DNA of 64,000 bases, taken from Opitutus sp. GAS368 (GTDB lineage: Bacteria; Verrucomicrobiota; Verrucomicrobiia; Opitutales; Opitutaceae). A program made the translations under genes and the position numbers. This document shows, piece after piece, positions 24,021-57,564 of this stretch. The notes under the pieces are model-generated. The model was not told the origin of the DNA. It searched no databases and saw only the letters and a list, made by a program, of their open reading frames with translations. The stretch lies in contig CAMDOF010000001.1 of the NCBI GenBank assembly GCA_945903465.1, forward strand, positions 1 to 64,000. The letters run 5' to 3'. Numbering within the stretch: the stretch's first letter is position 1; every line of letters begins with the position of its first letter.

Positions 24021-24812
24021 ATGCCCTCTCGCCATCTGCTCCGCTTCGCCGCCCGCCTCCTCGCCTGCGCAGGAATCCTTCTACTCGCGCCTTGCCTCCA
24101 AGCCGCCGCCGCAACCTCGTTGTTCGATGGCCAATCCCTGGCCGGCTGGGAGGGCGATAAGCAGTGGTGGCGAGTCGAAAACAAAACGATCACCGGCGGC
24201 TCCACCACCGAAAAAATTCCTCGTAATTTCTTCATCGCGACCACGCGCTCATTTCAAAATTTCGACCTCCGGCTGCAACTCAAGCTCACCGGTGATCCCC
24301 AGACCGGCATGATTAACAGCGGCGTGCAAATCCGGAGTCTACGCGTCCCCGCCGACACCGAGATGAGCGGCTATCAGGTGGACGCCGGCGAAAAGTGGTG
24401 GGGGAAACTCTACGACGAATCACGTCGCAACAAGGTGATCGCCGAGCCCCTCAACGCCGCCGCCGCGGACGCTGCGGTAAAAAAAGGCGACTGGAACGAC
24501 TATCGCATTCGCGCCGAAGGGCCCCGCATCCGCGCTTGGATCAATGGCGTGCCCACCGTCGACTACACCGAAACGGATCCCAACATCGCGCTCGACGGCA
24601 AAATCGGTATCCAAGTTCACGGCGGCGGCATCGCGCTCGTTCAGGCCAAAGCCATCACCCTTGAGGAATTACCGCCCACCCCCGGCGCGCCCACGTGGGA
24701 CCGGGTCGGCCACCCCAAGCCGCGCGATCCCAACACTAAAAAGAAAAAGAGCCCGCCCGCCCAAGCCACGCCCCCTTCCCCCGCGTCAACGCCCGTCCCC
24801 GCCTCCAAGTAA
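24021..24812 (+). CDS. DUF1080 (3-keto-disaccharide hydrolase family) exported protein
   Basis: A 263-residue protein with a signal peptide (about residues 1-30) and one DUF1080 (PF06439) beta-sandwich. Diagnostic segments are SLFDGQSLAGWEGD near the start, DLRLQLKLTG, NSGVQIRSL, GYQVDAG, WNDYRIRAEG, and DGKIGIQVHGGG near the end. The C-terminus (about 230-263) is a Lys/Pro/Ala/Ser-rich tail. Members cleave 3-keto-disaccharides or 3-keto-glycosides, or bind sugars. The gene follows the Tm-1-like gene by 268 bases on the same strand and is probably the last gene of that block; decayed mobile DNA begins just downstream. A second copy, without the tail, lies at 50945. Confidence 0.88.
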   Translation: MPSRHLLRFAARLLACAGILLLAPCLQAAAATSLFDGQSLAGWEGDKQWWRVENKTITGGSTTEKIPRNFFIATTRSFQNFDLRLQLKLTGDPQTGMINSGVQIRSLRVPADTEMSGYQVDAGEKWWGKLYDESRRNKVIAEPLNAAAADAAVKKGDWNDYRIRAEGPRIRAWINGVPTVDYTETDPNIALDGKIGIQVHGGGIALVQAKAITLEELPPTPGAPTWDRVGHPKPRDPNTKKKKSPPAQATPPSPASTPVPASK

Positions 24813-34500: not shown

Positions 34501-35280
34501 ACCCAGCTCTCGCTCGATGGTCTGGAGGGCCGGTTTAAGGAAAATCCGTTCAAGTTGGCCGGCGGGATTCGTTTCGCCTCTCAACAGCCCAAGCCCTACG
34601 CACTCACCGCCTCCGCCGATGTGCAAAACTTCGATGTCGGCGCATTTCTCCGTGCCTCGAATCCTGACGAAAAGCCAACCCTCGAAACCAAGGCCACCGT
34701 CACCGCCCGACTGAGCGGTCAGGGCTCGAACATGAGTGATCTGGCCCTTAACGCTTTCGGCAAATTCGAGATCACCGGCACCAAGGGCGTGGCCCGCGCG
34801 CTTTCCCGCAAAGGTGGCGCGGGCGCCGCGGTCAATTTAGCTTCCTTCGGTCTTTCCGTCCTCGGCGCCGCTCGCGGCTCCGACACGGCGTCCGCGGTGG
34901 GCGAGCTCGCCCGCGCATTAAATGAAGTCCCGTTCGACAGCTTGAAAATCCAGGTCGAACGCGCCCCTGACCTCAGCTTCAAACTCTCTTCCCTCGACAT
35001 TCTCTCACCCAATCTCCACCTGACCGGCACCGGCGGCATTGCCAGCAAGACCACCGACGATCTCCCCAACGCTCCCATCAACGTCGTCCTCCAACTCGGT
35101 GCCAAGGGCGAACTCGGCTATCTCCTTCAAAAAGTAGGTATGCTCGGTACCCAAAAAGATGATAAGGGCTACCAACTGATGTCGCGCTCATTCACTCTCG
35201 GCGGTACCCTTGCTAAACCCGACTCCGGCGCCCTCTGGAAAATTCTCGGCGAAGCCGCCCTTGGCGCCTTGGTCCGCTGA
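31516..35280 (+). CDS. Large AsmA-like inner-membrane-anchored protein
   Basis: A 1254-residue protein with a single N-terminal membrane anchor (about residues 5-27: IIGLVVGALVVFTAVVIGLAL) and a long periplasmic region rich in beta strands and alternating Ala/Leu/Thr, as in AsmA/TamB-like repeating beta-groove proteins. Two Pro/Ala/Thr/Ser-rich linkers break it up (about 110-168 and 897-960). The last 250 residues (RILYGKDYVISGVRGSAVIS, the NAFGKFEITGTKGVARAL segment, SLDILSPNLHLTGTGGI, FTLGGTLAKPDS) are the best match to the AsmA C-terminal domain. Members are thought to carry lipids between inner and outer membrane or to help outer-membrane biogenesis. It is monocistronic as far as can be seen, transcribed away from gltX. 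Assignment to a subfamily is uncertain. Confidence 0.75.
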   Translation: MKGLKIIGLVVGALVVFTAVVIGLALSPAVQTWAVRKAVANQPGLTIGVAEIDAGFSGIKVTDFSFTQDGIVVTAKGVSAQYSTWDYISNRRINADQIHVQELVIDLRQATAKPGSNTPSSPKNAVAGESTNIAKKNLPTTSAIPAPDASPAKATTTAPIAPKTTPFDGLLHQLQLALDVRVGAITAQGRALLPDNQTVIFNLKGARLEAGQKGTLDWTVDFADSKVGAALSALRTSGTVAIRISPDRRIDLVELEGAIAALGPKIPADKFKLALKAEQPSRGGNETYSATIGIVRATGLEPLLKTSALWNVAAREITGNWEVGIRSEQLAEILAGLGLPEIAANGSGQFTFKPGTNAATASGNLTVLASQLQKFAPDLAAIGSVKLTTTFDGGFANEHARLEKIALDLTAADGRKFAQISLLQPVTYSLKDQAITLTNSRAEAARISFAALPLAWAQPIAKPFHIESGDLSLTVTVEAESDGSRIRVRTIEPLSLRAVTIRDAQKKALIEALTLSLRPTIDYSPTKLSAQLSDLIATLPSGDAVRGTLSAEITELKTSPAIAFNAQLQSKIIAALKPYLPFEIGPLDLAFAIAGRHAGTTLHLTQANVSAKSSAGGLLFSEELLQPIQINLQKTAITPTNPATPTARVRLGEIPLAWGESFLPKSKLSGTFGGTALDLTLRTLDDLTVITTEPVTLRAVSAVIDGQTLAQNLDLSTQLSATHRAASIAYDIKSFSIKQGGTPLATLVVAGTASFGKKLQATAQGTLSADLPALTQQPVLTPYATLKRGLLKATFDATLDETSQVKAVITLTDLVAKQNNLPLGTIETSITARLAADGTATFTAPLTLTQGTRKSDLALAGTLGLATDKKSPVFSAKIGSNVLVIDDFQALAILAPAATPLPATTTAPSAPERSGNTTIIRAARPTAPVASSPGRPSPGSPAATTAAVGNSAKPARDAQPFWQGASGKAELDLKRILYGKDYVISGVRGSAVISPTQLSLDGLEGRFKENPFKLAGGIRFASQQPKPYALTASADVQNFDVGAFLRASNPDEKPTLETKATVTARLSGQGSNMSDLALNAFGKFEITGTKGVARALSRKGGAGAAVNLASFGLSVLGAARGSDTASAVGELARALNEVPFDSLKIQVERAPDLSFKLSSLDILSPNLHLTGTGGIASKTTDDLPNAPINVVLQLGAKGELGYLLQKVGMLGTQKDDKGYQLMSRSFTLGGTLAKPDSGALWKILGEAALGALVR

Positions 35281-35790: not shown

Positions 35791-37188
35791 TTACCCGCCC
35801 AGTGGCGCCATTCGCGTTTGCGCCAAGACCCTTGGCACCGAAATTGGCGGTATATCTCGGAGACGAGCCATGATCCATTCTCCATCAATTAAGATGATCT
35901 GATTCTGGCTCGCAAACGCTCTCGCCTCGCTCATGAAACCGCTCAAAGAAACGAACCAACCGAGATCGACTCCCTCGGCGGTGAGCGTCCCGAAAAGCTC
36001 GCGGACCTTTTTCGCTGGAACTACCCCAGCGGAACTCGGCGAGCAAACAATGAGCACACAGGCGTGACGCTCCTCCGAGCGATACAACGCAATGTCTTTA
36101 TCGCTGATACCTGGCTGCACAACGGCTTTGTATCCCTCCGATTCAGCGAGCACTGCAATCAACTTGACGAGCCGCTCCTTGGGCCAAGTCGCAATCTCGG
36201 TGATCGAGGGCAAACCACCAGCGGCGTCTGACATGCGGGAAGAAATACCCGAACGGGACGCTCCCGCAGGCGAGGCCTGCCAAGAACGCCACACCAGTAC
36301 AAAAAGCCCAACGACCAGAATCACGCCACCGCTAACCGCGACTAAGAGGATCCAACGAGCCGCGAAGAGACTTGAGTCGAGAATCACATTATCCGCCGAA
36401 CCTTTCGCCGCCACGGTCGGTTCAATCGGGATGGACGCAACTGTTTCCGGGTTGCCCACAGGTGCGGTGAGCGCCGGCGGTAAGATCGCCGCGCCGCTCG
36501 CGGCCTGCACCGCTGATATCGCCCGCTCCCGATAATTAGCACCCGGCGGCACTTTCATTAAATCGGCCGCTCCAAGGAACACTCCCCCCGCGGAAAATAC
36601 CGCTAAGCTCGGATAAGTCGTCACTCCCGCGCGGTCGCGCCAGCGGCTCTTTTCATCGCTATCATCGAGCGGAATCGCCTCAGGTCCGGCGAATTCGATC
36701 CGTAGAAAAACAAACTCCTCCGAAAATGCATCAAAGAATTCCGGGTGCAATTCCACATCCTTTTTAAATTGCTGGCTGGCTGGGGACCCCTCCGAAACGG
36801 TGAACAAAGCAAGAATACGAACCTGCCGACGAGTCGATTCCCTTGAAGCATCATCGGGCGTGCTAAACCAAAAATCAACCGGAGCGGCCGGTCTTTTCAC
36901 CGAGCTCGAGGAAGGCGGAACGGGACGGGGGCGGGGTGGCGGCCAAACCCCACTCATCGAAAAATCCACTCGCTCGACCCGGCCATCCGCCAGCGTCACC
37001 TGCCCTTGCGAGTAGCTCAGGACTTCCCGATTTCCTGATTGGGACGATCCATTCGGCCAGCCGTAAGCATCAATCACCGCGTCCTTGCTGGCACCCGGCA
37101 GAACGAAGACGCGCGGGGCTGCGGCGAAGACCGACAGGCATCGAAGCATTAAAAAGAGAAAGCAGCAACGGGTGAACAATCGCAGCAC
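35791..37188 (-). CDS. Thioredoxin-like / TM / degenerate Mrr-nuclease fusion
   Basis: A 465-residue protein with an unusual layout. Residues 1-23 are a signal peptide or first anchor. Residues 25-80 are a small beta-rich segment, followed by a Pro/Ser linker (82-103). Residues 105-212 resemble a thioredoxin fold (ILALFTVSEGSPASQQFKKDV, then VTTYPSLAVFSAGGVFLG with the typical Tyr-Pro-Ser), but the CxxC site is replaced by Ser-Glu-Gly-Ser. A membrane helix spans 279-300. Residues 330-445 match the Mrr-type restriction-endonuclease fold (KLIAVLAESEGY, SDKDIALY with Asp365, VRELFGTLTAEGVDLGWFVSLSGFMSEARAFA, IILIDGEWI). The Gln-x-Lys catalytic pair is Val-Cys-Ser at 381-383. Predicted topology: thioredoxin side in the periplasm, nuclease-like side in the cytoplasm. 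Neither domain looks catalytic. The function is unknown; a sensor or scaffold is possible. Confidence 0.72.
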   Translation of the reverse strand: MLRLFTRCCFLFLMLRCLSVFAAAPRVFVLPGASKDAVIDAYGWPNGSSQSGNREVLSYSQGQVTLADGRVERVDFSMSGVWPPPRPRPVPPSSSSVKRPAAPVDFWFSTPDDASRESTRRQVRILALFTVSEGSPASQQFKKDVELHPEFFDAFSEEFVFLRIEFAGPEAIPLDDSDEKSRWRDRAGVTTYPSLAVFSAGGVFLGAADLMKVPPGANYRERAISAVQAASGAAILPPALTAPVGNPETVASIPIEPTVAAKGSADNVILDSSLFAARWILLVAVSGGVILVVGLFVLVWRSWQASPAGASRSGISSRMSDAAGGLPSITEIATWPKERLVKLIAVLAESEGYKAVVQPGISDKDIALYRSEERHACVLIVCSPSSAGVVPAKKVRELFGTLTAEGVDLGWFVSLSGFMSEARAFASQNQIILIDGEWIMARLRDIPPISVPRVLAQTRMAPLGG

Positions 37189-43429: not shown

Positions 43430-43570
43430 CTCGCCAACCGCCGCGCCCCGCCACTCGGCTTCAGCTCCGCTTCAGCACCCTCTGCCCGCACCGCCATGCA
43501 GCGGTCGCGATCGTTCACTGAGGCGGGGCACCCCCTCACCTTCAAAAATAATCCACCCTCTCCGTTTTTT

Positions 43571-44710
43571 ATGAAACCACTCAATATCGGCATGATCGGC
43601 TACGGCTTCATGGGCCGCGCGCACTCCAACGCATTCCGCAAGGTCAATAATTTCTTTCCACTTCAGCATCAGGTCGTCCTCAAGGCGGCTTGCGGTCGCG
43701 ACGGCGCCAAGACCGCCGCCTTTGCCAACACTTGGGGATACCAATCTGTTGAGACCGACTGGAAAGCCCTGATCGCCCGCGAGGATATCGATGTGATCGA
43801 CATCGCCGCGCCCAACAACGTCCATGCTGAGATCGCCATCGCCGCGGCTAAGGCCGGCAAGATGATTCTTTGCGAAAAACCCCTCGGCATGAATGGCGCC
43901 GAGGCTCTCACCATGGTCAAGGCCATCGAAAAGGCCAAAGTCGCGAATATGGTCTGGTACAACTACCGCCGAATTCCCGCCGTCACTCTGGCCAAACAAT
44001 TGATCGACGAGGGCAAGCTCGGGAAAATTTTTCACTATCGAGCCAAGTTCCTTCAAGACTGGACCATCAACGCCGACGTCCCGCAGGGCGGCCCCGGCAC
44101 TTGGCGACTTGACGTAAGCGTCGCTGGCAGCGGCGTCACCGGCGATCTCCTCGCCCACTGCATCGACACCGCCATGTGGCTGAACGGTTCGATCGACACC
44201 GTCACCGGCATGACCGAGACGTTCGTCAAAGAGCGCGCTCACGCCCTTACGGGCAAGAAACAAAAAGTCGGAATTGACGACGCGAGCGCCTTCCTCGCCC
44301 GCTTCAGCAATGGCTCCCTCGCGACATTCGAATCGACCCGCTACGCCCGCGGGCACAAGGCGCAATACACCCTCGAGATTAACGGTGAAAACGGCTCCAT
44401 CGCCTGGGATCTCCATGATCTCCACCGGCTACAATATTTCGATCACCGCGACGGCGGCCTCACCCGCGGCTGGCGCAGCATCCACGTAACCGACGGCGAT
44501 CAACCTTACATGAAAAACTGGTGGGTGCCCGGTCTCGCCATCGGCTACGAGCACAGCTTCGTCCACCAAGTCGCCGACTTCATCGCCGGCCTCGACTCCG
44601 GCAAACCGGCCGCCCCGAGCTTCCGCGAAGGTCTTGCCACCGACTACGTTACCGATGCCGTACTCAAATCCGCTAAGACCGGCCGATGGGAAAAAGTTAA
44701 AAAGATCTGA
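43571..44710 (+). CDS. Gfo/Idh/MocA-family oxidoreductase
   Basis: A 379-residue NAD(P)-dependent sugar dehydrogenase. The ATG at 43571 opens the Rossmann fold directly ([17 protein letters not shown], residues 6-22); an in-frame ATG at 43496 adds 25 residues without family character. The catalytic motif CEKPLG has Lys103. The C-terminal alpha/beta domain holds [29 protein letters not shown] with the Asp/His pair expected near the active site, and [13 protein letters not shown]. Family members oxidise or reduce sugars, inositols or 3-keto-glycosides in the cytoplasm. The neighbours (TIM-barrel isomerases on both sides, DUF1080 and dehydrogenases downstream) suggest a keto-sugar pathway. A strong hairpin follows the stop. 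Confidence 0.9.
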
Positions 44711-45791: not shown

Positions 45792-48700
45792 ATGATCCGC
45801 TCACTCCTGCCCCTGCTCGCATTTCTGGCCTTGATCTCGGTCGCCGCCGCACAACCCACCTTGGTCCTCAATCCGCCCACCGAGACCAAAGCACAGGGTA
45901 AACACGTGGTTCTGCTTTCAGGCGACGAAGAATATCGTAGCGAGGAGGCGCTGCCCATGCTCGCCAAGATTCTCAGTCAACGGCACGGCTTCAAGGCGAC
46001 TGTGCTCTTCGCACTCGATCCCGATGGAACCATTAATCCAGAAAATCAAAAATCGCTCGCGGGGGCCGAGGCCATCGATTCTGCCGACCTGATCGTTCTC
46101 TCCCTGCGTTTCCGCAATTGGCCGGACGACCAAATGAAGCACTTCGTCGACGCCTATCTGCGTGGGATCCCGATCATCGCACTGCGCACCTCAACCCATG
46201 CCTTCAACATTCCCGCCACCAGCACATGGTCCGACTACTCTTGGAACAGCAAGGGGCCATGGTTGGGCGGCTGGGGCAAACACGTGCTCGGCGAAACGTG
46301 GGTCACCCACTGGGGTAAACATAAGTCCGAGGCCACCCGCACCATCACCGAACCTTCCTCTAAAAACGATCCCCTCCTCCGCGGCGTCACCACCATTTTT
46401 GGCAACAGCGACGTCTACGAGGCCTACCCACCCGCCGATGCCAAAATCCTTCTCCGCGGCCTCAGCCTCAAGGGGATGAATCCTAGCGACACCCCCGCCG
46501 ACCACCGCAAAAAACGTGCTGGCGACAAGCAAGAGCAGGGCATCAATGACCCCGCCATGCCCGTCGCTTGGACTCGGCTCCACCGCAACGGAGCCGGTAA
46601 AGAAAATAAAATCCTTACCACCACCCTCGGCGCGGCAACCGATTTGGAAGATGAAGGTCTCCGCCGTCTCGTAATCAATGGCGTCTATTGGGGTCTCGGC
46701 CTAGCCGTGCCCGCCAAGGCCGACGTCCGCCTCGTCGATCCTTATAAGCCGCGCATGTACGGCTTCAGAGGTCAACGTTATGGCCTCACCCCGACCGACT
46801 ACGCGCTCGGTAAAATCGTCCGCGAGGGCGACACGCCGCCTCCCCCCCCCACCCCCGCTCCGCAGAAGACCGCCGCCAAGGCGACCACTCCCGCGTCCAC
46901 CGCCACGACCACCGACTCTGCCGCGACCCCCAAAGCTAGCCCTACCATGCCGCCTTTTCAACTGAGCGCGGGTGCCCATGTCGCCATCATCGGCAACGGT
47001 ATGGCCGATCGTATGCAGCATCATGGCTGGCTCGAGACCATGCTGCACATCAAACACCCCGCCCATCAACTCATCGTCCGCAATCTCGCCACTCCAGGCG
47101 ACGAGGTCACCACGCGCGCCCGCTCAAAGGACTTTGGCACACCCGATGAGTGGCTCTCTAAGGTCCAAGCTGGCGTCGTCTTCTCGTTCTTCGGCTATAA
47201 CGAATCCTTCGCCGGTTCCGAGGGCCTGCCTAAATTCAAGGAAGACTTGGAAAAATTCCTCCGCGATACCCGCGCAAAAAATTATAACGGGCTCGGCGCG
47301 CCCCAGCTCGTCCTCTTCTCCCCGATCGCCACCGAAAAACATCCCGATCCCAACTTCACCTTCAACCCCACGATCAACGCGAACCTCGCCGCGTACACCG
47401 CCGCGATGGCCGAAGTCGCCCGCGATCAGGCCGGCGTCACTTTCGTCGATTTATTCACCCCCTCCCAAGCCGCCTTCGCCGAAGCCGCTCGCAGCGGCCA
47501 ACCCCTCACGATCAACGGCGTTCATCTCAGCGAGGCCGGCGAAGCCAAGATTGCCGAAAAAATCTACCCCGCGCTTTTCGGCGAAACCGCCCCCGCCACG
47601 AGCACGGCCGACGCGCAAAAAATTCGCGCCGCCATCAACGAGAAAAACGAAATGTGGCACTCCCGCTACCGCAGCGTCGACGGTTACAACATCTACGGCG
47701 ACCGATCCAAAATCGCCTATGTTTCTCACCCCGATACCCCCAAGCTTACCAACACTCAGATAATGATGGAAGAGATGGCGCAACGCGACGTCATGACCAG
47801 CAATCTAGAACGAAAAGCGTGGGCTCTCGCCGCCGGTAAGACGGGGCCCGTGGAGATGCTCCCACTCCCGGTCGTCACCGCTTTCGGCACCAACAAACCC
47901 GGCCCCAACATCGATAACACCTACGAATTCATCGACGGCGACGAGGCCATCCTCAAGATGACCCTCGCCCCGGGGCTCAAAGCCAATCTCTTCGCCAGCG
48001 AGAAACAATTTCCGGAACTCGCCAAGGCGGTCCAAATGGCTTGGGACACCAAGGGCCGCCTCTGGGTCGCCGTCTGGCCCAATTACCCCGAACGCACCCC
48101 AACCTCAAAACTAGGCGATAGCATCATCATCCTCGAGGATACCGACCGCGATGGCCGCGCCGATAAGGTCACCCACTTCATCGATAACCTTAACTGTCCC
48201 ACCGGATTTCAATTCTTCAAAGACGGCATCCTGCTCATGCAGGCACCCGATTTATGGTTCGTCCGCGATACTGACGGCGACGGCAAAGCCGATACCAAAG
48301 AACGGGTCCTCATGGGCCTCGACTCAGCCGATTCGCACCATACCGCCAACTCGCTTATCTATGAGCCAGGCGGGGCCATTCTCCTCAGCGACGGCGTCTT
48401 TCACCGCTCGCAAGTCGAAACCGTGGCCGGCGTCGTCCGCAATGTCGACGGCGCGATCTATCGCTACGAGCCGCTCACCGCTAAATTCGAAACCTACGTG
48501 GCCTACGGGTTCGCCAACCCCCACGGCCGCGCCTTCGACTACTGGGGCAACGACATCATCACCGACGCCACCGGCAACAATACCTATTTCGGCCCCGGCT
48601 TCAGCGGTCGCATCGACTATCCCGCCAAGCACCCGAAAATGAAGACCATCTGGGATCGCCCCTCGCGCCCTTCCGCCGGTAGTATTATTCTTACGAGTAA

Positions 48701-50867
48701 ACATTTTCCCGACGATTACTGGGGCAACTATCTCAATCCAAACTGCATTGGCTTCCAAGGTATCTTCCGGGTCAAACTCGGCGACGACGGCGCTGGTATT
48801 ATGGGCACCCGCCAGCCGGATATCATGCAATCCAGCGATAAAAATTTTCGCCCCATCGACACCAGCGTGGGACCCGATGGCGCCATTTACGTGGTGGATT
48901 GGCACAACCCGCTCATCGGCCATCTCCAGAGTCACCTCCGCGATGCCAACCGCGACCATGTTCACGGGCGGATTTACCGCATCACCGCCGAGGATCGACC
49001 ACTCGCTTGGCAACCAAAAATCGAGGGCGAGCCGCTGCCCGCCCTCCTCGCCCTCCTCCAACGCGGAGAAAATCAAATCCGCAACCTCGCCAAGATTGAA
49101 CTCGGCAAACACGACGCGACCACGGTCATCGCCGCCGTGAAGACGTGGGTCGCCCGCCTCGATCAAAAAGATCCCGAGTACGCTCATCATCTCACCGAGG
49201 CCCTCTGGGTTCATCAATGGCACAATGTCGTCAATCCCGAGCTCCTCAACCAACTGCTCCGCTCGCCCGATGCCGGCGCCCGTGCCGCCGCCACTCGCGT
49301 GCTCTGCTACTGGCGTGATCGCGTGCCCAACGCCTTGGCTTTAATCCAACGCCAAGCCACCGACGAAAATCAACGCGTGCGACTTCACGCCGTCCGCGCC
49401 GCCAGCTTCTTCAACGTGCCCGAAGCCACCGAGGTCCCACTCGCCGCCACCAAGCTCCCCGTCGACTACTACCTCGACTACGTCATCGGTGAGACCCTCC
49501 GCCAACTCCGCCCGCTCTGGCGCCAACGGATCGGCGAGGGCGGTAAATTCGCCGACGGCGATCCCGCGAGCACCCGCTACTTACTGCGCACCCTCACCGT
49601 CGCCGAAGTCCTGAAAATGCCGCGCAGCCCCGATGTCTGCGAAAATCTTCTCGGTCGCAGCGGCGTCACCGACGCGCTCCGCGCTGAGGTCTTGGCCATC
49701 TTGGCCGCTGCCCGCCGCGTCTCGCCCGTCTCACTTCTCGTCAACGCCATCGACGCTCCTTCCGAGATCGACGTGCGCGCCGTCGGCCGTCTGCTCGTCG
49801 CCCAACCACCCGCTCAGCTCGCCGCCGAACGCGCCTCTTTGCGCCGCCTCGCCCTCGCCGATAATTCCGAGGGCCGCTCTTGGGGATTTGCCGCCGCGGC
49901 CCTCGCCGACGGCTCCCTCAATGGCGTCTGGGATGAAGCCAAAGTTTCCCCGCTGGCCTTCGCCAGTCTCCTCGGCGGCATCCATCTTATTCCCAACCCC
50001 GAACTGCGCGCCACCGCCTTCGATCGCGTGATGCCCATCCTCGCAAGGACCATCACCGATATCCAGGGACCTGATAATATTGTCGCCGCGATCCAACGCG
50101 ATGCGATGCGCTCCGCTGTCAGCACCAAACGCGATCCCGAAAAGGTCTTCGCCGCCCTCGTCTCCATGATCGAGCGCGGCTACCAGGCCGCGACCGCCGC
50201 GCAAAGTGTTCGCGCCCTCCCTCGCACCAGCTGGACCCCCGCCCTTGCCGGCGCCGCCGCCCGCGCCCTCGTCGCTTGGGCCGCTAAGACCCACGCCAGC
50301 GAACGCACCAGCAAAGACTACGTCGAAGCCATCCAGGTAGCCGACGAACTCACCGGCACGCTCAATGCCGTCGAGGCCGACCCTCTCCGCACCTCTCTTT
50401 CCAGTCTCCGCGTTGCTGTATTTATCGTCCGCGCCGTCGTCGAGGGCATGCGCTACGATACCCCACGCATCGTCGTCCAAGCTGGACGCCCTTTCGAAAT
50501 TATCTTCGAAAACCCCGACGTAATGCCCCACAATCTCGTCGTCGTAAAACCAGGTACCCGCACCAAGATCGGCACTGCCGCCATGGAGTTGGCCCCCGAA
50601 TTCACCGACCGAAGTGGGCGCGCTTGGGTACCCGAGTCCACCGAGATCGTCGCCGCCACCAAGTTGATCGAGCCCGGTCGCAATGAGACGTTGCGCATCG
50701 CCGCCACCGCTACGCAGACCGAGGGCACCTACGAATATGTGTGCACATTTCCGGGCCACTGGCTCATGATGTACGGCGAACTCATCGTCACCAAAGACGT
50801 CGACGCTTACCTCCGAGCCAACCCCGTCGCCAACACCCTCACCGCCCCCGCGGTTCACAAACACTAA
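45792..50867 (+). CDS. ThuA-SGNH-dehydrogenase-HEAT-cupredoxin giant protein
   Basis: A 1691-residue exported protein. The ATG at 45792 opens a signal peptide (MIRSLLPLLAFLALISVAAA); the frame runs 74 codons further upstream without coding character. Order of domains: ThuA-like (about 35-310); a linker; an SGNH-like domain (about 395-620: HVAIIGNGMADRMQHHGWLE, FSFFGYNESF) whose block I lacks the nucleophilic Ser; a Pirellula/Verrucomicrobium-type dehydrogenase beta-propeller (about 719-1060: AWDTKGRLWVAVWPNYPE, VGPDGAIYVVDWHNPLIGH); HEAT-like repeats (about 1075-1540); and a C-terminal cupredoxin (about 1553-1660). The copper ligands are His1580 (MPHNLV), Cys1651, His1656 and Met1660, matching azurin spacing. 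Azurin-like copper takes the place of the CxxCH heme domain seen in its relatives at 17798 and 54844. Likely role: periplasmic sugar oxidation passing electrons to copper (inferred). Confidence 0.88.
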   Translation: MIRSLLPLLAFLALISVAAAQPTLVLNPPTETKAQGKHVVLLSGDEEYRSEEALPMLAKILSQRHGFKATVLFALDPDGTINPENQKSLAGAEAIDSADLIVLSLRFRNWPDDQMKHFVDAYLRGIPIIALRTSTHAFNIPATSTWSDYSWNSKGPWLGGWGKHVLGETWVTHWGKHKSEATRTITEPSSKNDPLLRGVTTIFGNSDVYEAYPPADAKILLRGLSLKGMNPSDTPADHRKKRAGDKQEQGINDPAMPVAWTRLHRNGAGKENKILTTTLGAATDLEDEGLRRLVINGVYWGLGLAVPAKADVRLVDPYKPRMYGFRGQRYGLTPTDYALGKIVREGDTPPPPPTPAPQKTAAKATTPASTATTTDSAATPKASPTMPPFQLSAGAHVAIIGNGMADRMQHHGWLETMLHIKHPAHQLIVRNLATPGDEVTTRARSKDFGTPDEWLSKVQAGVVFSFFGYNESFAGSEGLPKFKEDLEKFLRDTRAKNYNGLGAPQLVLFSPIATEKHPDPNFTFNPTINANLAAYTAAMAEVARDQAGVTFVDLFTPSQAAFAEAARSGQPLTINGVHLSEAGEAKIAEKIYPALFGETAPATSTADAQKIRAAINEKNEMWHSRYRSVDGYNIYGDRSKIAYVSHPDTPKLTNTQIMMEEMAQRDVMTSNLERKAWALAAGKTGPVEMLPLPVVTAFGTNKPGPNIDNTYEFIDGDEAILKMTLAPGLKANLFASEKQFPELAKAVQMAWDTKGRLWVAVWPNYPERTPTSKLGDSIIILEDTDRDGRADKVTHFIDNLNCPTGFQFFKDGILLMQAPDLWFVRDTDGDGKADTKERVLMGLDSADSHHTANSLIYEPGGAILLSDGVFHRSQVETVAGVVRNVDGAIYRYEPLTAKFETYVAYGFANPHGRAFDYWGNDIITDATGNNTYFGPGFSGRIDYPAKHPKMKTIWDRPSRPSAGSIILTSKHFPDDYWGNYLNPNCIGFQGIFRVKLGDDGAGIMGTRQPDIMQSSDKNFRPIDTSVGPDGAIYVVDWHNPLIGHLQSHLRDANRDHVHGRIYRITAEDRPLAWQPKIEGEPLPALLALLQRGENQIRNLAKIELGKHDATTVIAAVKTWVARLDQKDPEYAHHLTEALWVHQWHNVVNPELLNQLLRSPDAGARAAATRVLCYWRDRVPNALALIQRQATDENQRVRLHAVRAASFFNVPEATEVPLAATKLPVDYYLDYVIGETLRQLRPLWRQRIGEGGKFADGDPASTRYLLRTLTVAEVLKMPRSPDVCENLLGRSGVTDALRAEVLAILAAARRVSPVSLLVNAIDAPSEIDVRAVGRLLVAQPPAQLAAERASLRRLALADNSEGRSWGFAAAALADGSLNGVWDEAKVSPLAFASLLGGIHLIPNPELRATAFDRVMPILARTITDIQGPDNIVAAIQRDAMRSAVSTKRDPEKVFAALVSMIERGYQAATAAQSVRALPRTSWTPALAGAAARALVAWAAKTHASERTSKDYVEAIQVADELTGTLNAVEADPLRTSLSSLRVAVFIVRAVVEGMRYDTPRIVVQAGRPFEIIFENPDVMPHNLVVVKPGTRTKIGTAAMELAPEFTDRSGRAWVPESTEIVAATKLIEPGRNETLRIAATATQTEGTYEYVCTFPGHWLMMYGELIVTKDVDAYLRANPVANTLTAPAVHKH

Positions 50868-50944
50868 TTCGTCGGTCACCTTTTCCCAGTTCATCGCCTC
50901 AACCAGCCTCGCTCCAACCTCATTCTCGCAGTCCCACTCCTCCT

Positions 50945-51694
50945 ATGAAACTCCCCCGCTCCCGCTTCTGCACACTCGCATTCGGCTTGGCCGCTTTGGC
51001 GTCCGGCACCTTCGCCGCCGACACCGGCTTTAAAGCCATTTTCAACGGCAAAGATCTCACCGGATGGAAGGGCCTTAAGGATTTCTGGTCCGTCCGCGAC
51101 GGCGCCCTCACCGGCCAGACCACCAACGAAAAAGTCCTGAAGTCGAATACCTTTCTCGTGTACCAAGATGGCCAGCCGGCAAATTTCGAGCTCCGCGCCC
51201 AGTTTAAACTCACCGCGCAAAACGAAAAAAATGGGGGAAACTCCGGCATTCAATACCGCAGCAAACTTATCGACCCAGAGACTTTCGTCGTCGGCGGCTA
51301 TCAAGCCGATATCGACTCGCCCTTCAAATATACTGGCATGCTGTATGAAGAAAAAGGCCGCGGCATCCTCATGACGAGCGGCGAAAAAATCCGCATCGGT
51401 GCGACCACCACCGCTCCCGATGGCAAAAAAAAGAAAACTGAAGTCGAGAAATTGGGCGTAGCCACCCCGACGGCTGACATCGCCACCGCCTACAAGCTCG
51501 GCCAGTGGAACGAGATCGTCATCATCGCCAATGGCAATCACCTGCAGCACTTCATCAACGGCAAACTCACCGCTGATGTCATCGATACCGATGGCGAAAA
51601 AGGCGCCAAGTCCGGCATCCTCGCCCTCCAGCTGCACCAAGGCCCGCCGATGACGATTCAATTCAAGGACATCCGGCTCAAGTCCCTGCCGTAA
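50945..51694 (+). CDS. DUF1080 (3-keto-disaccharide hydrolase family) exported protein
   Basis: A 249-residue protein. The ATG at 50945 opens a signal peptide (MKLPRSRFCTLAFGLAALASGTFA). The longer in-frame start at 50741 overlaps the giant gene in another frame and gives Arg/Pro-rich sequence. The DUF1080 domain covers the rest: FKAIFNGKDLTGWKGLKDFWSV, FELRAQFKLTAQN, GGNSGIQYRS, VGGYQADIDS, GQWNEIVIIANGNHLQHFING, GILALQLHQGPPMTIQFKDIRLK. It starts 77 bases after the cupredoxin-tailed dehydrogenase gene and ends 94 bases before a clear terminator, so the two are very likely one transcript. Expected function: hydrolysis of a 3-keto-glycoside in the periplasm, the step after glycoside oxidation. 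Confidence 0.9.
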   Translation: MKLPRSRFCTLAFGLAALASGTFAADTGFKAIFNGKDLTGWKGLKDFWSVRDGALTGQTTNEKVLKSNTFLVYQDGQPANFELRAQFKLTAQNEKNGGNSGIQYRSKLIDPETFVVGGYQADIDSPFKYTGMLYEEKGRGILMTSGEKIRIGATTTAPDGKKKKTEVEKLGVATPTADIATAYKLGQWNEIVIIANGNHLQHFINGKLTADVIDTDGEKGAKSGILALQLHQGPPMTIQFKDIRLKSLP

Positions 51695-51787
51695 GCTGGT
51701 CCCGACCTATCGACTTCACCTGCCTGCCCGCTCACCCCGCGCCCGCTCCGCGCCCGTGGGGTGGGTTGATCACCGTGGTCTCTGTAT

Positions 51788-51817
51788 CCGGATTACGACT
51801 ACAAATCCGGTTTTTTT
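51788..51817 (+). terminator. Rho-independent terminator
   Basis: Stem CCGGATT (51788-51794) with AATCCGG (51804-51810), a 9-nt loop, then seven T (51811-51817). This is the clearest intrinsic terminator in the window. It ends the 40.9-51.7 kb block after DUF1080 and separates it from the TonB receptor gene. Confidence 0.88.
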
Positions 51818-51905
51818 AGAAACGCGGCCTGCCTTTGCTCGCATCGTCAACTTTGCGTAACCAGCGGTCTTATTCCCCGCCCACCCACTCGATATCCGAA
51901 ACCGA

Positions 51906-54680
51906 ATGACCGCATTCCGCCGCATTTTTTTTGCCACTGCCCTCGCACTAGGTTTCGCCACGACCCCCAACGCGCAAGTCGCTTCCGCCCCCGCCGGCAA
52001 CTCCTTGGCTCCCGCGACGCCCGCGAAAAGTGATGCCTACAAACTCGAGGATTTTGTCGTCACCGGCGTCTTCAACGCCACCGAAGCAAAAAAGGCCACC
52101 ACCGCCATCTCGACCATCGATGCCGCAATGATTGCTGAGCAGGTTCCGCTCAGCGCCGATGATTTGCTCCTTAATGTCGCCGGCGTTTTCGTTAATTCTT
52201 CCCTCGGTGAGATTCGTGGCATGGTCTACTCGCGCGGTATCTCCGCGGATAGCAGCGACGGCGCGGGCGGCCAGTACTACGTTTCCATGCAGGAGGATGG
52301 CCTGCCCATCACCAATGTCAGCTTCGGCAACTATGGCGCCGGTTATTTCAACCGTCCCGACGCCACGCTCCAACGCGTCGAGGCCGTGCGCGGCGGCAGC
52401 GCGTCCATTACTTCCTCCAACTCGCCTGGCGGTGCCTTCAACTATATCAGCCGAGTGGGTACCCCCACGTTCGGCGGCGAACTCCGCACCCGCCTCGGAC
52501 TCGAGGGTCGCTGGTCACCCCAGTACCGTACAGATCTCACCATCGGCGGCCCTCTCGGCACCAAGGGCTGGATGTACAACGTCGGCGGTTTCTACCGCTA
52601 CGCCGAAGGCCACCGCCCCCCCGTCGGTTATCCGATGAACGATGGGTTCGTCCTGCGCGGGAACCTCTTCAAGGACTACGGCCGCGGCTCTCTCAAGCTC
52701 TACGGAAAATACATGGACGACCGCAATCACTGGTACGAGTACCTCCTCGCCCGTGATCCCCAAAGCCCGCGCCAATACCCCGGTCTGAGCCGCTACAGTA
52801 CCAACTTGCTACCCAAAAGCTCCCACCAATATCCACGCGAAGGCGCCAATCAATTCGGCACGTTCGACACCACCGACGCCGTCCGCTCGCGCGAACGTTA
52901 TCTCGGCGCTGAGTGGAAACACGAATTCGGCGACGGTTGGTCGCTCAACCACAATGTGAAGTTCACCCGCAACTGGGCCGACTGGAACTCCAGCTCCGGC
53001 GTCACCCCGCGGAGCCTCGACTGGCCAAATTTTTTCAGCACGATGGCTTTTCAATTCAGTGGCGGTGGCCAAAACGGTCGCGTGCCCGCCGGCCGCTACC
53101 TGTTCAGCGATCGCCAAAGCGGTAGCGTCCTCGCCGAGGTGACTTCCAACGGAAACTACACGGTCAACGCCAACGCCCTGAACAACCCGGGCCAAGTCGT
53201 CGTTTTCGCTCGCCTCCCCAACAACGGGATTCTGCCCAACGCCCTTTGGACCAATAACGGCCGCGTCGCCAATGAGCACGTCGACGAGATCATGGACCGC
53301 CTCTCGCTGACCAAGCGCTTTCGCACCATGAGCTTCACCGCGGGCGGATTCTTCGGATACTCTGGCATCTCCGATCGCCAAACCAGCGGCGGTCGGACCG
53401 CTTCGCCTTTGGTCGAACAGCCGATTCCACTGGCGATCACTTGGATTCCCGCAACCGCCGCCACCGCTCCCGCCGGCACCCTCGCCGCCGCCCTCACCCC
53501 CATCGCCGGCTTCGCGGGCCGCCCCGTCATGCTCACGAATCCCGAGGGCTTTACCGCACTCGGCGTGGGCTATACCCGCGACGATGCGATCAGCCGACAA
53601 TTCGCCTACTTCTTCGGTCACAAATGGGATTTCACCCCGCGCTGGGGCATCGACTGGGGCTTCCGCAGCGAAAACTTCGTCGTCAAGGGCTACAACCAGG
53701 CCGGCGTCCAAAACCCCCTCGGAAATTGGGAGCCCACCTATGGAGGCGCCGATGGCAATCCGCTCACGATGGCCGACAACCGCTTCACCTTGCCCAACCC
53801 TGCCGCCAAATGGAACTTTGATAAAAGCGTGCGCAGCTTTTCTTGGTCAACCGCCACCAACTTTGTGATCAATAACGAAAATTCGTTCTACATCCGTTAT
53901 GCCAACGGCGAAAAGGCCCCCGATTACGGCTTCTTCCGCACTTACACGTCACAGTTCCGATTGAACCAGCTCAAACCCCGCCCCCAAAGTGTCGAACAAT
54001 GGGAACTCGGCTACCGCTGGAAAAAGGGCGCCCTCAGCCTCACCGCCACTCCTTTCTGGAGCCGCCTCGGCAACATTAATAGCAACCCTCAGGCCACCGA
54101 GGCCGATGGCGTCACCCCTTATTATCCTGACCCAATCTACAATATGGTCACCTCGTACGGTCTCGAGCTCGAGGGTTCACTTAAAATTTCCGAGCATTTT
54201 AATCTCCGTTCCGTCTTCACCGCGCAAAAGTCCGAGGGCACCCTTTGGAAGATTTTCGTGCCCGGCGCCAACGGCCGCGACGATGACAGCTATCTCGATT
54301 TCACCGGCAAGCCTTCGGATAATAACCCCGACTTCATTCTCAACACCACGCTGACCTACCGCACGCCCCGCTTTTTTTCTAACCTGTCCTGGAAACACAT
54401 GGGTGAACGCGCCGGTAACGTCGCCAACGTGATCATGCTACCTCGCTTCAACCAATTCGATCTCGCCATGGGCTGGACCTTCTCCCGACGCTTCTCCGTC
54501 AATTTCAATATTAACAACCTCAGCGACAGCGAGGGGGTCATGACGTGGCGCGGCTGGGGCGTCAACCCAGGCGACCGCCAGAGCTTCACCTCCCTCCCGG
54601 CCACCGGTAAAGATACCATGCTGCAATACGTGCCCATTCAACCACGCGCCTTTTTCCTTTCCTCGACCTATCGGTTCTAA
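51906..54680 (+). CDS. TonB-dependent outer-membrane receptor (924 aa)
   Basis: A 924-residue receptor with a signal peptide (about residues 1-24) and a TonB-box-like segment (YKLEDFVVTGVFNATEAKKATTAIS). The plug domain includes MIAEQVPLSADDLLLNVAGVFV, GMVYSRGISAD and LQRVEAVRGGSASITSSNSPGGAFNYI. The remainder is a 22-strand-type barrel ending in Phe (FFLSSTYRF). It lacks a SusD partner. It lies between a DUF1080 gene and a dehydrogenase-cytochrome gene, followed by three sulfatases and PhoD, so a glycan-derived or glycoside ligand is likely (inference). A terminator 88 bases upstream means it has its own promoter in that gap. Confidence 0.9.
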   Translation: MTAFRRIFFATALALGFATTPNAQVASAPAGNSLAPATPAKSDAYKLEDFVVTGVFNATEAKKATTAISTIDAAMIAEQVPLSADDLLLNVAGVFVNSSLGEIRGMVYSRGISADSSDGAGGQYYVSMQEDGLPITNVSFGNYGAGYFNRPDATLQRVEAVRGGSASITSSNSPGGAFNYISRVGTPTFGGELRTRLGLEGRWSPQYRTDLTIGGPLGTKGWMYNVGGFYRYAEGHRPPVGYPMNDGFVLRGNLFKDYGRGSLKLYGKYMDDRNHWYEYLLARDPQSPRQYPGLSRYSTNLLPKSSHQYPREGANQFGTFDTTDAVRSRERYLGAEWKHEFGDGWSLNHNVKFTRNWADWNSSSGVTPRSLDWPNFFSTMAFQFSGGGQNGRVPAGRYLFSDRQSGSVLAEVTSNGNYTVNANALNNPGQVVVFARLPNNGILPNALWTNNGRVANEHVDEIMDRLSLTKRFRTMSFTAGGFFGYSGISDRQTSGGRTASPLVEQPIPLAITWIPATAATAPAGTLAAALTPIAGFAGRPVMLTNPEGFTALGVGYTRDDAISRQFAYFFGHKWDFTPRWGIDWGFRSENFVVKGYNQAGVQNPLGNWEPTYGGADGNPLTMADNRFTLPNPAAKWNFDKSVRSFSWSTATNFVINNENSFYIRYANGEKAPDYGFFRTYTSQFRLNQLKPRPQSVEQWELGYRWKKGALSLTATPFWSRLGNINSNPQATEADGVTPYYPDPIYNMVTSYGLELEGSLKISEHFNLRSVFTAQKSEGTLWKIFVPGANGRDDDSYLDFTGKPSDNNPDFILNTTLTYRTPRFFSNLSWKHMGERAGNVANVIMLPRFNQFDLAMGWTFSRRFSVNFNINNLSDSEGVMTWRGWGVNPGDRQSFTSLPATGKDTMLQYVPIQPRAFFLSSTYRF

Positions 54681-54843: not shown

Positions 54844-57564
54844 ATGATCCGTTCGCTCCCCCTTCTGCTCCTTCTTCTCCCCGCTGTAATCTGCGCGCAA
54901 ACGACCAAGAAAAAAGCTGACGGTGGCGCCACCGCCGGCCAGTCCTCCCGCGCCGCCATGGCCGCCCTTACCACCGCCACGGCTGCCAACGACATCCAAG
55001 TGGCCCCCGGCTTCAAAGTGGAGTTGATCTATACCGTTCCCAAGGGTGACCAAGGTTCGTGGGTCGCCCTGACGATCGACCCCAAGGGCCGCCTCCTCGC
55101 CAGCGATCAATACGGCGGCATCTACCGCGTCACGCCTCCCGCCATCGGGACCAGCGCTGCCGCCAAGGTCGAACACCTCGATCTCGATTTCAGCAGTATC
55201 AAGGTAGCGGATACCGAGGCTCCTCGCGAGGCGAAAAAAGACAAGGCGCGCACTGACTCAGGCCCTCGGCTGGAGGTCGGCGCCCACGGGCTGCTTTATG
55301 CTTTCGACAGTCTCTACGTCATGGTCAACGAAAACAAAGGACGCACCGGTCTCTGGCGCGTGCGCGACACCAACGGCGACGATCACTTCGACGAGATAAA
55401 ATTCCTGCGGGCCATGAACGGCTCCAGTGAACATGGCACCCACGCCCTCGTCCTCGCGCCGGACGGCAAATCCATTTATTTCGCCAACGGGAATCACACC
55501 GATCTGCCCAAAGCGATGGAAAAGACTCGCATGGTCGCCTGGGGCGAGGATCACCTGCTGCCGCGGATGTGGGATGCGCGCGGGCACGCCCGCAACAAGT
55601 ATGCCCCCGGTGGATACATCGGGCGCACCGACCCCGAGGGTAAATCAATCGAACTTTTTTCCATCGGTTTCCGCAATCAATATGACATGGCGTTCGATCA
55701 GAACGGCGAGCTCTTCACCTACGACTCCGATATGGAATGGGACCAAGGTTCACCGTGGTATATGCCCACCCGTATCAATCACGCCGTCGATGGCGGCGAT
55801 TACGGTTGGCGCAGCGGCGCGGGGCGCTGGCCCGCCTACTACGCCGACAGCTTAAACGAGGTGGTGAACATTGGCCCCGGCTGCCCCACGGGCGTCAGCT
55901 TCGGAACCGGCGCCAAGTTTCCCGCCAAGTTCCAGCACGCCCTCTACGCCTGCGATTGGACTTTCGGCACCCTCTACGCCATTCATCTCACGCCCGATGG
56001 CGCCAGCTTCCGCGGCGAGAAAACTGAGTTTCTCTCAGGCAAACCTCTCCCGCTCACCGATCTTCTCATTAATCCCGCCGACGGCGCCATGTACTTCACG
56101 GTCGGTGGTCGCCGCACCCAGGCCGCCCTCTACCGCGTAACCTACACTGGAACCGCCAGCACCGTTCCCGCCAAGCCCGCGGCTCCCACCGCTGCCGCCC
56201 AACTCCGCCGCGCCCTCGAGATCCTGCACACCGAAGGGACCGGCCCAGAGGCCGTCAACACCGCTTGGCCCCACCTTAACCATCCCGACCGCTTCGTCCG
56301 CTTCGCCGCCCGCATCGCCATCGAGCGGCAGCCCGCGGCCGCTTGGTCGGATCGCGCCGTCGCTGAGCTCCAGCCCCAAGCCTCCATCGAAGCGCTCATC
56401 GCCCTCGCCCGCGTCGGCGATAAATCTCTCCAGCCCAAACTCCTCGCGGCCCTCAGCCGGCTGGACTTTGCCACCCAGCCCGCCGAACTGCGCCAACCCC
56501 TCCTCCGCGCTTGGCAACTCGCCTTCACGCGCATGGGCAAGCCCACCCCAGAAGCCTGCGCGACCATCACGGCCCGGTTGGAACCTCATTTCCCACACGC
56601 CGATGCCTTCGTTAACCGCGAACTCGTCGCTTTACTCATCTACCTGGATTCCAAGCAGGTCGTCGCCAAAACCATTCCGCTCCTCAGTGTTTTCGAACTT
56701 GCGAGCACCAACGCCGCCGAGCTCGGCGATGCCCACGTCATCGCCCGCAACGATAACTACGGCAAGGTCGTCCAGAGCGTCGCCAACAGCCGGCCCGACC
56801 GCCAGCAGATCGCCTTGGCCTACTCTCTCCGCAATGCCACCGTCGGTTGGACACCGAAACTGCGCACCGAATTTTTCTCTTGGTTTCCCCGCACCCGCAA
56901 CTGGAAAGGGGGCAATAGCTTTAACGGATTCATCCAAAACATCCGCACCGAATCCCTCGCCACTGTTGCCAACAAAACCGAGCGCGCCGCCTTCGACGCC
57001 CTCTCCAGCCCTCCCCCGCCTTCCTTCACCGCTCCAGCCATCACCCCGCAGGGGCCCGGCCAAGCTTACACGCTGAAGGAGGTCGTCGCGTCCCTGCCCG
57101 CCCGTCTCACCGGCCGCGATTTTGCCCGCGGCAAGGCCATGTTCACCGCCACCGCTTGCATCTCTTGCCACCGCTTCGCCAACGAGGGCGGTAGTGGCGC
57201 CGGTCCCGATCTCAGCGGCGCCGCCGGCCGTTACAGCGTCCGCGATCTTCTCGAGAATATCATCGATCCTTCCGCCGTCATCAGCGATCAATTCGGCAGC
57301 GAACAAATCGAGCGCACCGGCGGCGACCCCATCGTCGGACGCGTCGTCGGGGAAGAGGGTGGCGATCTCCTCGTCATGGCCAACCCGTTCATGCCCGACG
57401 AAAAAATCCGCGTGAAAACCGCGGCCATCACTTCGCGCAAACCTTACCCCGTTTCCATGATGCCTCCTGGCCTGATCAACTCGCTCAATCCGAGTGAACT
57501 TCAAGATCTGCTAGCTTACGTCCTCAGCGGCGGTAACTCCACCGACGCCATGTTCAAACGCTAA
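54844..57564 (+). CDS. Dehydrogenase-HEAT-cytochrome c exported protein
   Basis: A 906-residue protein with a signal peptide (MIRSLPLLLLLLPAVICA). A beta-propeller of the Pirellula/Verrucomicrobium dehydrogenase type occupies about 45-440 (ALTIDPKGRLLASDQYGGIYRV, GYIGRTDPEGKSIELFSIGFRNQYDMAF, SDMEWDQGSPWYMPTRINHAVDGGDYGWR). HEAT-like repeats follow at about 455-730. The C-terminal putative heme domain has CISCH (Cys772, Cys775, His776) and GAGPDLSGAAGRYSVRDLLENIIDPSAVISDQF. This is a shorter relative of the protein at 17798 and lacks ThuA domains. It probably oxidises a sugar in the periplasm and passes electrons to its own heme. It starts 163 bases after the TonB receptor stop on the same strand, with a run of eight C in the leader. 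Confidence 0.88.
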   Translation: MIRSLPLLLLLLPAVICAQTTKKKADGGATAGQSSRAAMAALTTATAANDIQVAPGFKVELIYTVPKGDQGSWVALTIDPKGRLLASDQYGGIYRVTPPAIGTSAAAKVEHLDLDFSSIKVADTEAPREAKKDKARTDSGPRLEVGAHGLLYAFDSLYVMVNENKGRTGLWRVRDTNGDDHFDEIKFLRAMNGSSEHGTHALVLAPDGKSIYFANGNHTDLPKAMEKTRMVAWGEDHLLPRMWDARGHARNKYAPGGYIGRTDPEGKSIELFSIGFRNQYDMAFDQNGELFTYDSDMEWDQGSPWYMPTRINHAVDGGDYGWRSGAGRWPAYYADSLNEVVNIGPGCPTGVSFGTGAKFPAKFQHALYACDWTFGTLYAIHLTPDGASFRGEKTEFLSGKPLPLTDLLINPADGAMYFTVGGRRTQAALYRVTYTGTASTVPAKPAAPTAAAQLRRALEILHTEGTGPEAVNTAWPHLNHPDRFVRFAARIAIERQPAAAWSDRAVAELQPQASIEALIALARVGDKSLQPKLLAALSRLDFATQPAELRQPLLRAWQLAFTRMGKPTPEACATITARLEPHFPHADAFVNRELVALLIYLDSKQVVAKTIPLLSVFELASTNAAELGDAHVIARNDNYGKVVQSVANSRPDRQQIALAYSLRNATVGWTPKLRTEFFSWFPRTRNWKGGNSFNGFIQNIRTESLATVANKTERAAFDALSSPPPPSFTAPAITPQGPGQAYTLKEVVASLPARLTGRDFARGKAMFTATACISCHRFANEGGSGAGPDLSGAAGRYSVRDLLENIIDPSAVISDQFGSEQIERTGGDPIVGRVVGEEGGDLLVMANPFMPDEKIRVKTAAITSRKPYPVSMMPPGLINSLNPSELQDLLAYVLSGGNSTDAMFKR

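Follow-up and report, generated by a model that had tools for sequence, protein, structure and literature searches.

A blue-copper domain in the place of cytochrome c on a propeller protein encoded beside a 3-keto-disaccharide hydrolase in Opitutus

The window (the whole stretch of 64,000 nucleotides analysed here, from a genome of 8.16 Mb in 343 contigs that is 93% complete) contains at 45792..50867, on the + strand, a CDS for a protein of 1691 amino acids. Its 1691 codons (45792-50864) run without internal stops, and the protein is composed of a signal peptide followed by ThuA-like, SGNH-like, six-bladed propeller (DUF7133/TIGR02604), HEAT, and azurin-type domains. The N-terminus, MIRSLLPLLAFLALISVAAAQP, is signal-peptide-like as judged by eye. 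The string of domains proposed by a previous sequence-only reading is confirmed for the SGNH, propeller, and HEAT regions, whereas the ThuA-like domain (residues ~25-345, 45864..46826, + strand) stays below the Pfam cut-off here (25.8 versus 33.4 bits) and passes it in the paralogue L088 (36.2 bits). The SGNH/GDSL-like domain spans residues ~385-600 (46944..47591, + strand), with a GDSL-like Pfam match above cut-off at residues 411-585. The stretch that we take to be the nucleophile motif reads GNGMAD, and because the nucleophilic Ser is missing, this domain is, from its sequence, probably not a hydrolase. The propeller occupies residues 700-1084 (47889..49043, + strand; DUF7133 above cut-off at 717-930) and the HEAT/alpha-solenoid linker, identified by Pfam and in the predicted model, residues ~1085-1540 (49044..50411, + strand; HEAT_2 above cut-off at 1149-1215). 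The blue-copper domain, of the auracyanin/azurin type, closes the protein at residues 1546-1670 (50427..50801, + strand).

The neighbouring genes lie on the same strand. Upstream are a xylose-isomerase-like TIM barrel (PF01261; 42311..43429, an ORF taken from its first start codon, the true start being probably internal), a Gfo/Idh/MocA oxidoreductase (43496..44710, also with a probably internal start), and a second xylose-isomerase-like TIM barrel (PF01261; 44822..45688). Downstream, 78 bases after the stop codon, a 3-keto-disaccharide hydrolase of 249 aa (PF06439, 137 bits; 50945..51694) has a signal-like N-terminus by eye and is followed by a TonB-dependent receptor (51906..54680) and by a distant propeller protein with a C-terminal cytochrome c (54844..57564), whose homologue, 65-70% identical, is found next to the operon's heme version in genomes G018 and G088. 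Elsewhere in the window, a 1254-aa ORF at 31516-35280 has no Pfam match at E 0.001, a protein encoded at 35791-37188 joins an Mrr-type restriction-endonuclease domain to a thioredoxin-like match that is weak (26.3 bits) and under its cut-off, and at 9987-14131 a DUF1552 gene adjoins a PSD/PSCyt planctomycete-type cytochrome protein.

The sequence-only reading had recognised an azurin-type domain by His1580, Cys1651, His1656, and Met1660 with Cys-x4-His-x3-Met spacing. The alignment places the predicted ligands exactly there (50529..50531, 50742..50744, and 50757..50759 for the first three, and 50769..50771 for the axial Met, all on the + strand), and the identification goes far beyond chance. 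Copper-bind (PF00127) scores 39.2 bits on residues 1551-1666 (cut-off 21.2), and auracyanin (6kol) is matched by sequence with E 3.8e-10. Of 118 distinct blue-copper domains in the alignment, 109 of them fused and 9 free or unclear, every one keeps the full set of ligands. For many of these the scan pattern had already required the Cys and the second His, but not the first His or the Met. The AlphaFold2 model of residues 700-1691, made from 46 alignment rows, has a mean pLDDT of 90.5 and a pTM of 0.78. The structural comparison with azurin suggested by the earlier reading gives a cupredoxin fold for the predicted domain, with auracyanin 6kol (TM by target 0.88, rmsd 1.4) and azurins (3azu, TM 0.84) as best Foldseek matches. 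The domain would be expected to bind copper. Azurins read MGHN at the first His, according to the available portion of PMC8779525, and the free azurins L051 and L215 have this Gly. The window protein has Pro1579 instead (MPHN), and Gly is found there in none of the 109 fused domains (73 P, 24 Q, 7 L, 2 F, and one each of D, A, and E). The strict azurin equivalog TIGR02695 gives 40 bits, under its cut-off of 105.1. By its sequence, this is therefore a blue-copper domain and not an azurin in the strict sense; we keep the latter name as shorthand.

The propeller belongs to a family described in NCBIfam as "PVC-type heme-binding CxxCH protein" (TIGR02604; 209 bits, cut-off 122.2), a point that, like the identity of the next gene, goes beyond the sequence-only reading. 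Yet CxxCH is absent from the ORF of the window and from every frame of 50700-52000. Judged by fold matches, the model of the propeller (pLDDT 86.8) looks six-bladed. Its top matches include soluble glucose dehydrogenase (1qbi, E 4.3e-9, TM 0.56/0.50, amid other propellers) and pyranose dehydrogenase, and equally the luciferin-regenerating enzyme, NHL, and HHIP propellers; SMP-30 is matched as well, and many of the propellers returned are not dehydrogenases. A profile comparison indicates remote kinship with the GSDH family (hhalign 97.6%), but PF07995, the model of GSDH and PQQ sugar dehydrogenases, does not match the window protein at E up to 0.001 and matches 2 of 10 relatives at E up to 1 (best 1.9e-4); a sequence search of the PDB gives no convincing match for the propeller. 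Asn909 and Gly912 are conserved in all 54 rows of the propeller alignment and His849 in 53 of them. His849 lies near the GSDH His, which we take to be catalytic, this residue match coming from one remote profile alignment. Position 908 is Arg in 2 of the 3 GSDH sequences aligned (by eye, in the same single remote alignment), where it is presumably the PQQ-contacting residue, and in none of the 54 rows. A search of the genome for pqqC gave no match, and neither did its control anywhere. The description "sugar-dehydrogenase-like" is thus plausible at the level of sequence: remote kinship and the aligned His speak for it, and the missing Arg and the breadth of fold matches against it. The propeller might instead be a non-catalytic scaffold that binds or docks carbohydrate, with azurin or cytochrome merely linking the respiratory chain to other enzymes. 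Such a role would suit the many non-redox fold matches and the fact that direct similarity to dehydrogenases is weak; the near-invariant His849 and Asn909, together with the remote GSDH homology, fit an active site, and enzyme activity has been reported for the relative Lac161_ORF7 (see following; PMC5342196, in its available portion), so that a mere scaffold seems unlikely.

The pairing of the giant gene with a 3-keto-disaccharide hydrolase gene recurs in the orthologues. A PF06439 gene follows the azurin protein in all 11 testable nonredundant orthologues (the window, L111, L113, which is identical to L275, L114, which is identical to L228, L226, L229, L230, L235, L236, L244, and L249; L112 ends too soon). 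A Gfo/Idh gene lies upstream in 8 of the 10 testable ones; it is not found in L235 and L249, and L112 and L229 run off their contigs. In the source genome, 12 of the 42 PF06439 matches are within 3 kb of a propeller ORF or inside one, against an expectation of ~3.1 (p 3e-5 in a plain binomial model that takes no account of contig ends), and 30 are not within that distance. Two heme-type propeller proteins, encoded on C42 and C104, contain PF06439 themselves. A purified protein with the TIGR02604-HEAT-cytochrome arrangement, Lac161_ORF7, from a clone assigned to Chthoniobacter, hydrolysed lactose, and the available portion of its description reports it as a hydrolase, not an oxidase (PMC5342196). 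The adjacency to PF06439, its presence within propeller proteins, and the lactose-active heme relative therefore point to oxidation of glycosides at C3, with electrons leaving by copper or heme.

A rival reading is a redox-neutral glycosidase, in which C3 would be oxidised, the glycoside eliminated and hydrated, and the electrons returned, copper or heme serving as a transient store without net transfer out. One-electron carriers such as blue copper and heme usually pass electrons on. Moreover, one copper holds one electron when C3 oxidation needs two, and a separate 3-keto-disaccharide hydrolase next door would be needless for a self-sufficient glycosidase. We regard such an enzyme as quite unlikely, even though Lac161_ORF7 did hydrolyse lactose, with a Km of 1.8 mM (PMC5342196, available portion).

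Within the source genome, the place occupied by azurin in the window protein is most often that of a cytochrome c. The 61 distinct propeller ORFs examined, each longer than 400 aa, closed at the 3' end, and with a propeller match of E 1e-20 or better, divide into 52 with CxxCH downstream of the propeller, 5 with azurin in that position, and 4 with neither; none has both, and of the last 4, 3 have CxxCH before the propeller and 1 has none. Because most paralogues hold cytochrome c after the propeller, azurin, as identified by sequence, fills the cytochrome c slot. Another giant protein of the window (17798-22231 and 24021-24812) has a propeller with cytochrome c and a C-terminal ThuA, i.e., the opposite order, and a PF06439 match 1.9 kb away. 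The genome also codes for a separate, shorter propeller-azurin fusion of 780 aa (L108, on G000 C31), with a PF06439 match at ~1 kb. In the tree of azurin domains, read without its support values and given no weight here, the short-propeller fusions L108 and L179 group together and apart from the group of the window protein, and the other short-propeller rows L178 and L187 are elsewhere.

The search for the same fusion in other genomes, suggested in the sequence-only reading, shows that it is not a one-off. A scan of named genome contigs gave at least 589 blue-copper relatives, and the best 80 of these loci, whose titles are mostly from Verrucomicrobiota, Planctomycetota, and Bacteroidota, were analysed. 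Their azurin ORFs include 57 propeller-azurin fusions without CxxCH (some cut at the contig end), 13 propeller-azurin fusions with CxxCH, 7 azurin-heme proteins without propeller, and 3 azurins alone. In the window's family, blue-copper matches occur in 80 of 100 genomes, many of them in short free-azurin frames, and at least 24 genomes have one in a frame of at least 600 aa among the matches listed. Query A3 finds matches in 4 of 57 genomes of the class at E <= 1e-100 (the source genome included), and in 19 of 30 chosen relatives. Approached from the propeller, 51 complete ORFs from further members of the family and class end in heme (30), azurin (18), or neither (3), a split that is not a frequency because most of these genomes were chosen for having azurin. 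More generally, the counts of end states are not frequencies, because the azurin-only and azurin-heme rows were mostly fetched by azurin (the best 80 of at least 589) and the heme rows come from the genome, family, and class of the window. One propeller set was drawn from 180 strong ORFs and keeps the 170 that are neither short nor open at the 3' end.

The fragmented state of the source genome, in 343 contigs, could raise the suspicion that the fusion arose in assembly or gene calling. The recurrence of propeller-azurin ORFs, in 57 of the best 80 loci and in 18 of the 51 propeller-fetched ORFs from genomes mostly chosen for azurin, speaks against it, as does the search downstream of 7 azurin-only genes, which found no heme remnants (its two controls being self-matches). 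We reject an artefact, whose probability is practically negligible. In L235 and L210 (G007) the azurin part is in another frame than the propeller part, indicating a broken gene or a sequencing error. The record titles of L129, L132, L139, and L171 look doubtful from the grouping of their propellers: those titled as the Akkermansia muciniphila group sit next to Chthoniobacteraceae-titled ones, and the Williamsia-titled one groups with mostly Bacteroidota-titled ones. Such groupings of sequences may come from transfer.

Azurin and heme also occur in a single chain. Of the 13 fusions with CxxCH, L187 has it before the propeller, and in the other 12 it lies 51-61 residues past the end of the azurin match. 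These tandem proteins (L133, L140, L143, L146, L147, L149, L152, L155, L167, L174, L180, and L188) are mostly from Planctomycetota-titled contigs, and from their sequences they appear to be built-in electron wires with two centres. The rule that a propeller carries heme or azurin and never both holds for the ORFs of the source genome and is broken elsewhere by these 12 proteins. Six of the 7 azurin-heme ORFs (L129, L130, L132, L139, L151, and L181) come after a propeller ORF that has neither domain; this was not seen for L131. The propeller and azurin-heme parts in the six are two adjacent or overlapping ORFs, a gene fission of the same system.

Blue-copper domains are usually separate electron carriers, and the sequence-only reading had proposed that the one in the window protein is a covalently attached electron acceptor. 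That it is a built-in acceptor is well supported because homologues carry a c-type heme domain in its place or directly after it; electrons would then flow from the propeller to the copper. A role in copper storage, sensing, or protein stability, without electron carriage, is very unlikely for a domain that replaces or precedes c-type heme in homologues and keeps its His, Cys, His, and Met ligands in every one of the domains aligned.

The phylogenetic tree of the propellers (118 rows thinned to 71, plus 3 outgroup rows, i.e., 74) requires 16 changes for the four end states, 4 of them for heme-only versus azurin-only alone. The azurin rows L158 and L170 join the heme row L251 with support 100/97, nested inside a heme clade. 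L158 (1032 aa) shares 56% of 893 aligned residues with L251 (1038 aa), and beyond the shared region the azurin of L158, at 919-1030, faces the CxxCH of L251, at 924. Similarly, L149 (azurin and heme) is 77% identical to L088 (azurin only) over 986 residues, through the azurin domain, after which L088 stops and L149 continues into a heme domain. These comparisons of sequences suggest that azurin and heme acceptors have been exchanged on the same scaffold more than once.

A different kind of exchange is found within the operon itself. In G018 and G088 the neighbours are close to those of the window (Gfo/Idh 72-74%, TIM barrel 75%, and hydrolase 71% identity), and the ThuA is 68-70% identical to that of the window and up to 80% to that of the azurin-type orthologue of G031. 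In contrast, from the SGNH domain through the propeller to the first HEAT part, identity to the window protein drops to 37-42%, whereas the ThuA-bearing heme paralogues of G091, G067, and G054 are matched at 83-91%. Hence, a heme-bearing SGNH-propeller-HEAT module fills the slot of the window protein in this operon, behind a ThuA of the azurin type. The ThuA tree places G018 and G088 with the azurin-type G031 (95/96), in conflict with the propeller tree, which separates azurin from heme at 100/100. Forcing the azurin-type ThuAs into one clade is rejected by the AU test on the 15 of 20 rows with ThuA (p-AU 0.0005, for a group picked after the identities were seen). Among the matches listed, there is no long-frame azurin in G018 (frames of 676 and 209 aa) or in G088 (215, 676, and 209 aa), and in G062, which shares their genus code, the operon holds the azurin version. 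The simplest reading of these sequences is that a complete oxidase-plus-acceptor module would have been exchanged in place, in at least one event, because G018 and G088 are of one genus.

We thus consider it reasonably likely that the window protein is secreted and oxidises glycosides, probably at C3, passing the electrons to an acceptor that is built in and interchangeable. We infer the direction of electron flow, the C3 chemistry, and the substrate as follows. The protein would be secreted, to the periplasm or the surface, where its propeller would oxidise a sugar by two electrons, C3 of a glycoside being the likeliest position. The type 1 copper at the C-terminus would receive these electrons one by one and hand them on to the respiratory chain. 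Cleavage of the 3-keto product would fall to the 3-keto-disaccharide hydrolase encoded next door, perhaps also to ThuA, and the 3-keto sugar would be handled by the Gfo/Idh and TIM-barrel enzymes. The acceptor would be a plug-in part, the same scaffold working with cytochrome c, with azurin then cytochrome c, or with azurin alone. More tentatively, and with a little less than even confidence, one may extend this to a large family of secreted glycoside-3-oxidases in which either blue copper or c-type heme can be plugged in as the acceptor. Change from one to the other would pass through an azurin-heme "wire" intermediate or exchange the oxidase together with its acceptor within a conserved 3-keto-sugar operon, e.g., in response to iron or copper supply.

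The interest of the locus lies in this natural replacement of heme and copper and in the link to 3-keto sugars. By that chemistry a large and poorly characterised propeller family, with 61 ORFs in one genome, gains a testable role. The natural matched pairs, L158 with L251 and G062 with G018 and G088, keep the scaffold or the operon while the acceptor is copper in one and heme in the other, and they constitute a ready experiment on the choice of built-in electron acceptors.

Several known systems resemble parts of this one. Auracyanin (6kol, 2aan) and azurin share with the window domain the fold, the four ligands, and the Cys-x4-His-x3-Met loop, and differ from it in that the window domain is fused, reads MPHN for the MGHN of azurin (PMC8779525, available portion), and scores 40 versus 105 bits with the azurin model. 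Lac161_ORF7 is, like the window protein, a TIGR02604-HEAT protein of Verrucomicrobia with an electron carrier at the C-terminus, and it acts on a disaccharide; its carrier is a cytochrome c, and the available portion of its description names neither ThuA nor azurin (PMC5342196). The lactose 3-dehydrogenase LacABC, which comes with DUF1080, is a three-component, membrane-bound system, and a propeller/azurin fusion is not mentioned in the available portion of its report (PMC9007349). None of the papers listed by a literature search describes azurin on the TIGR02604 scaffold, the tandem azurin-heme form, or the swap; automatic database annotations of propeller-azurin proteins probably exist. The TIGR02604/DUF7133 family has the propeller and HEAT scaffold in common with the window protein (209 versus 122 bits), which lacks the CxxCH of that family and has a blue-copper domain in the place of the heme. 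In copper nitrite reductases with a tethered redox partner, electrons flow into the enzyme. These have the carrier tethered to the enzyme, as in the window protein (PMC13324648 and PMC9358711, available portions), on a reductase that is unrelated to the window propeller.
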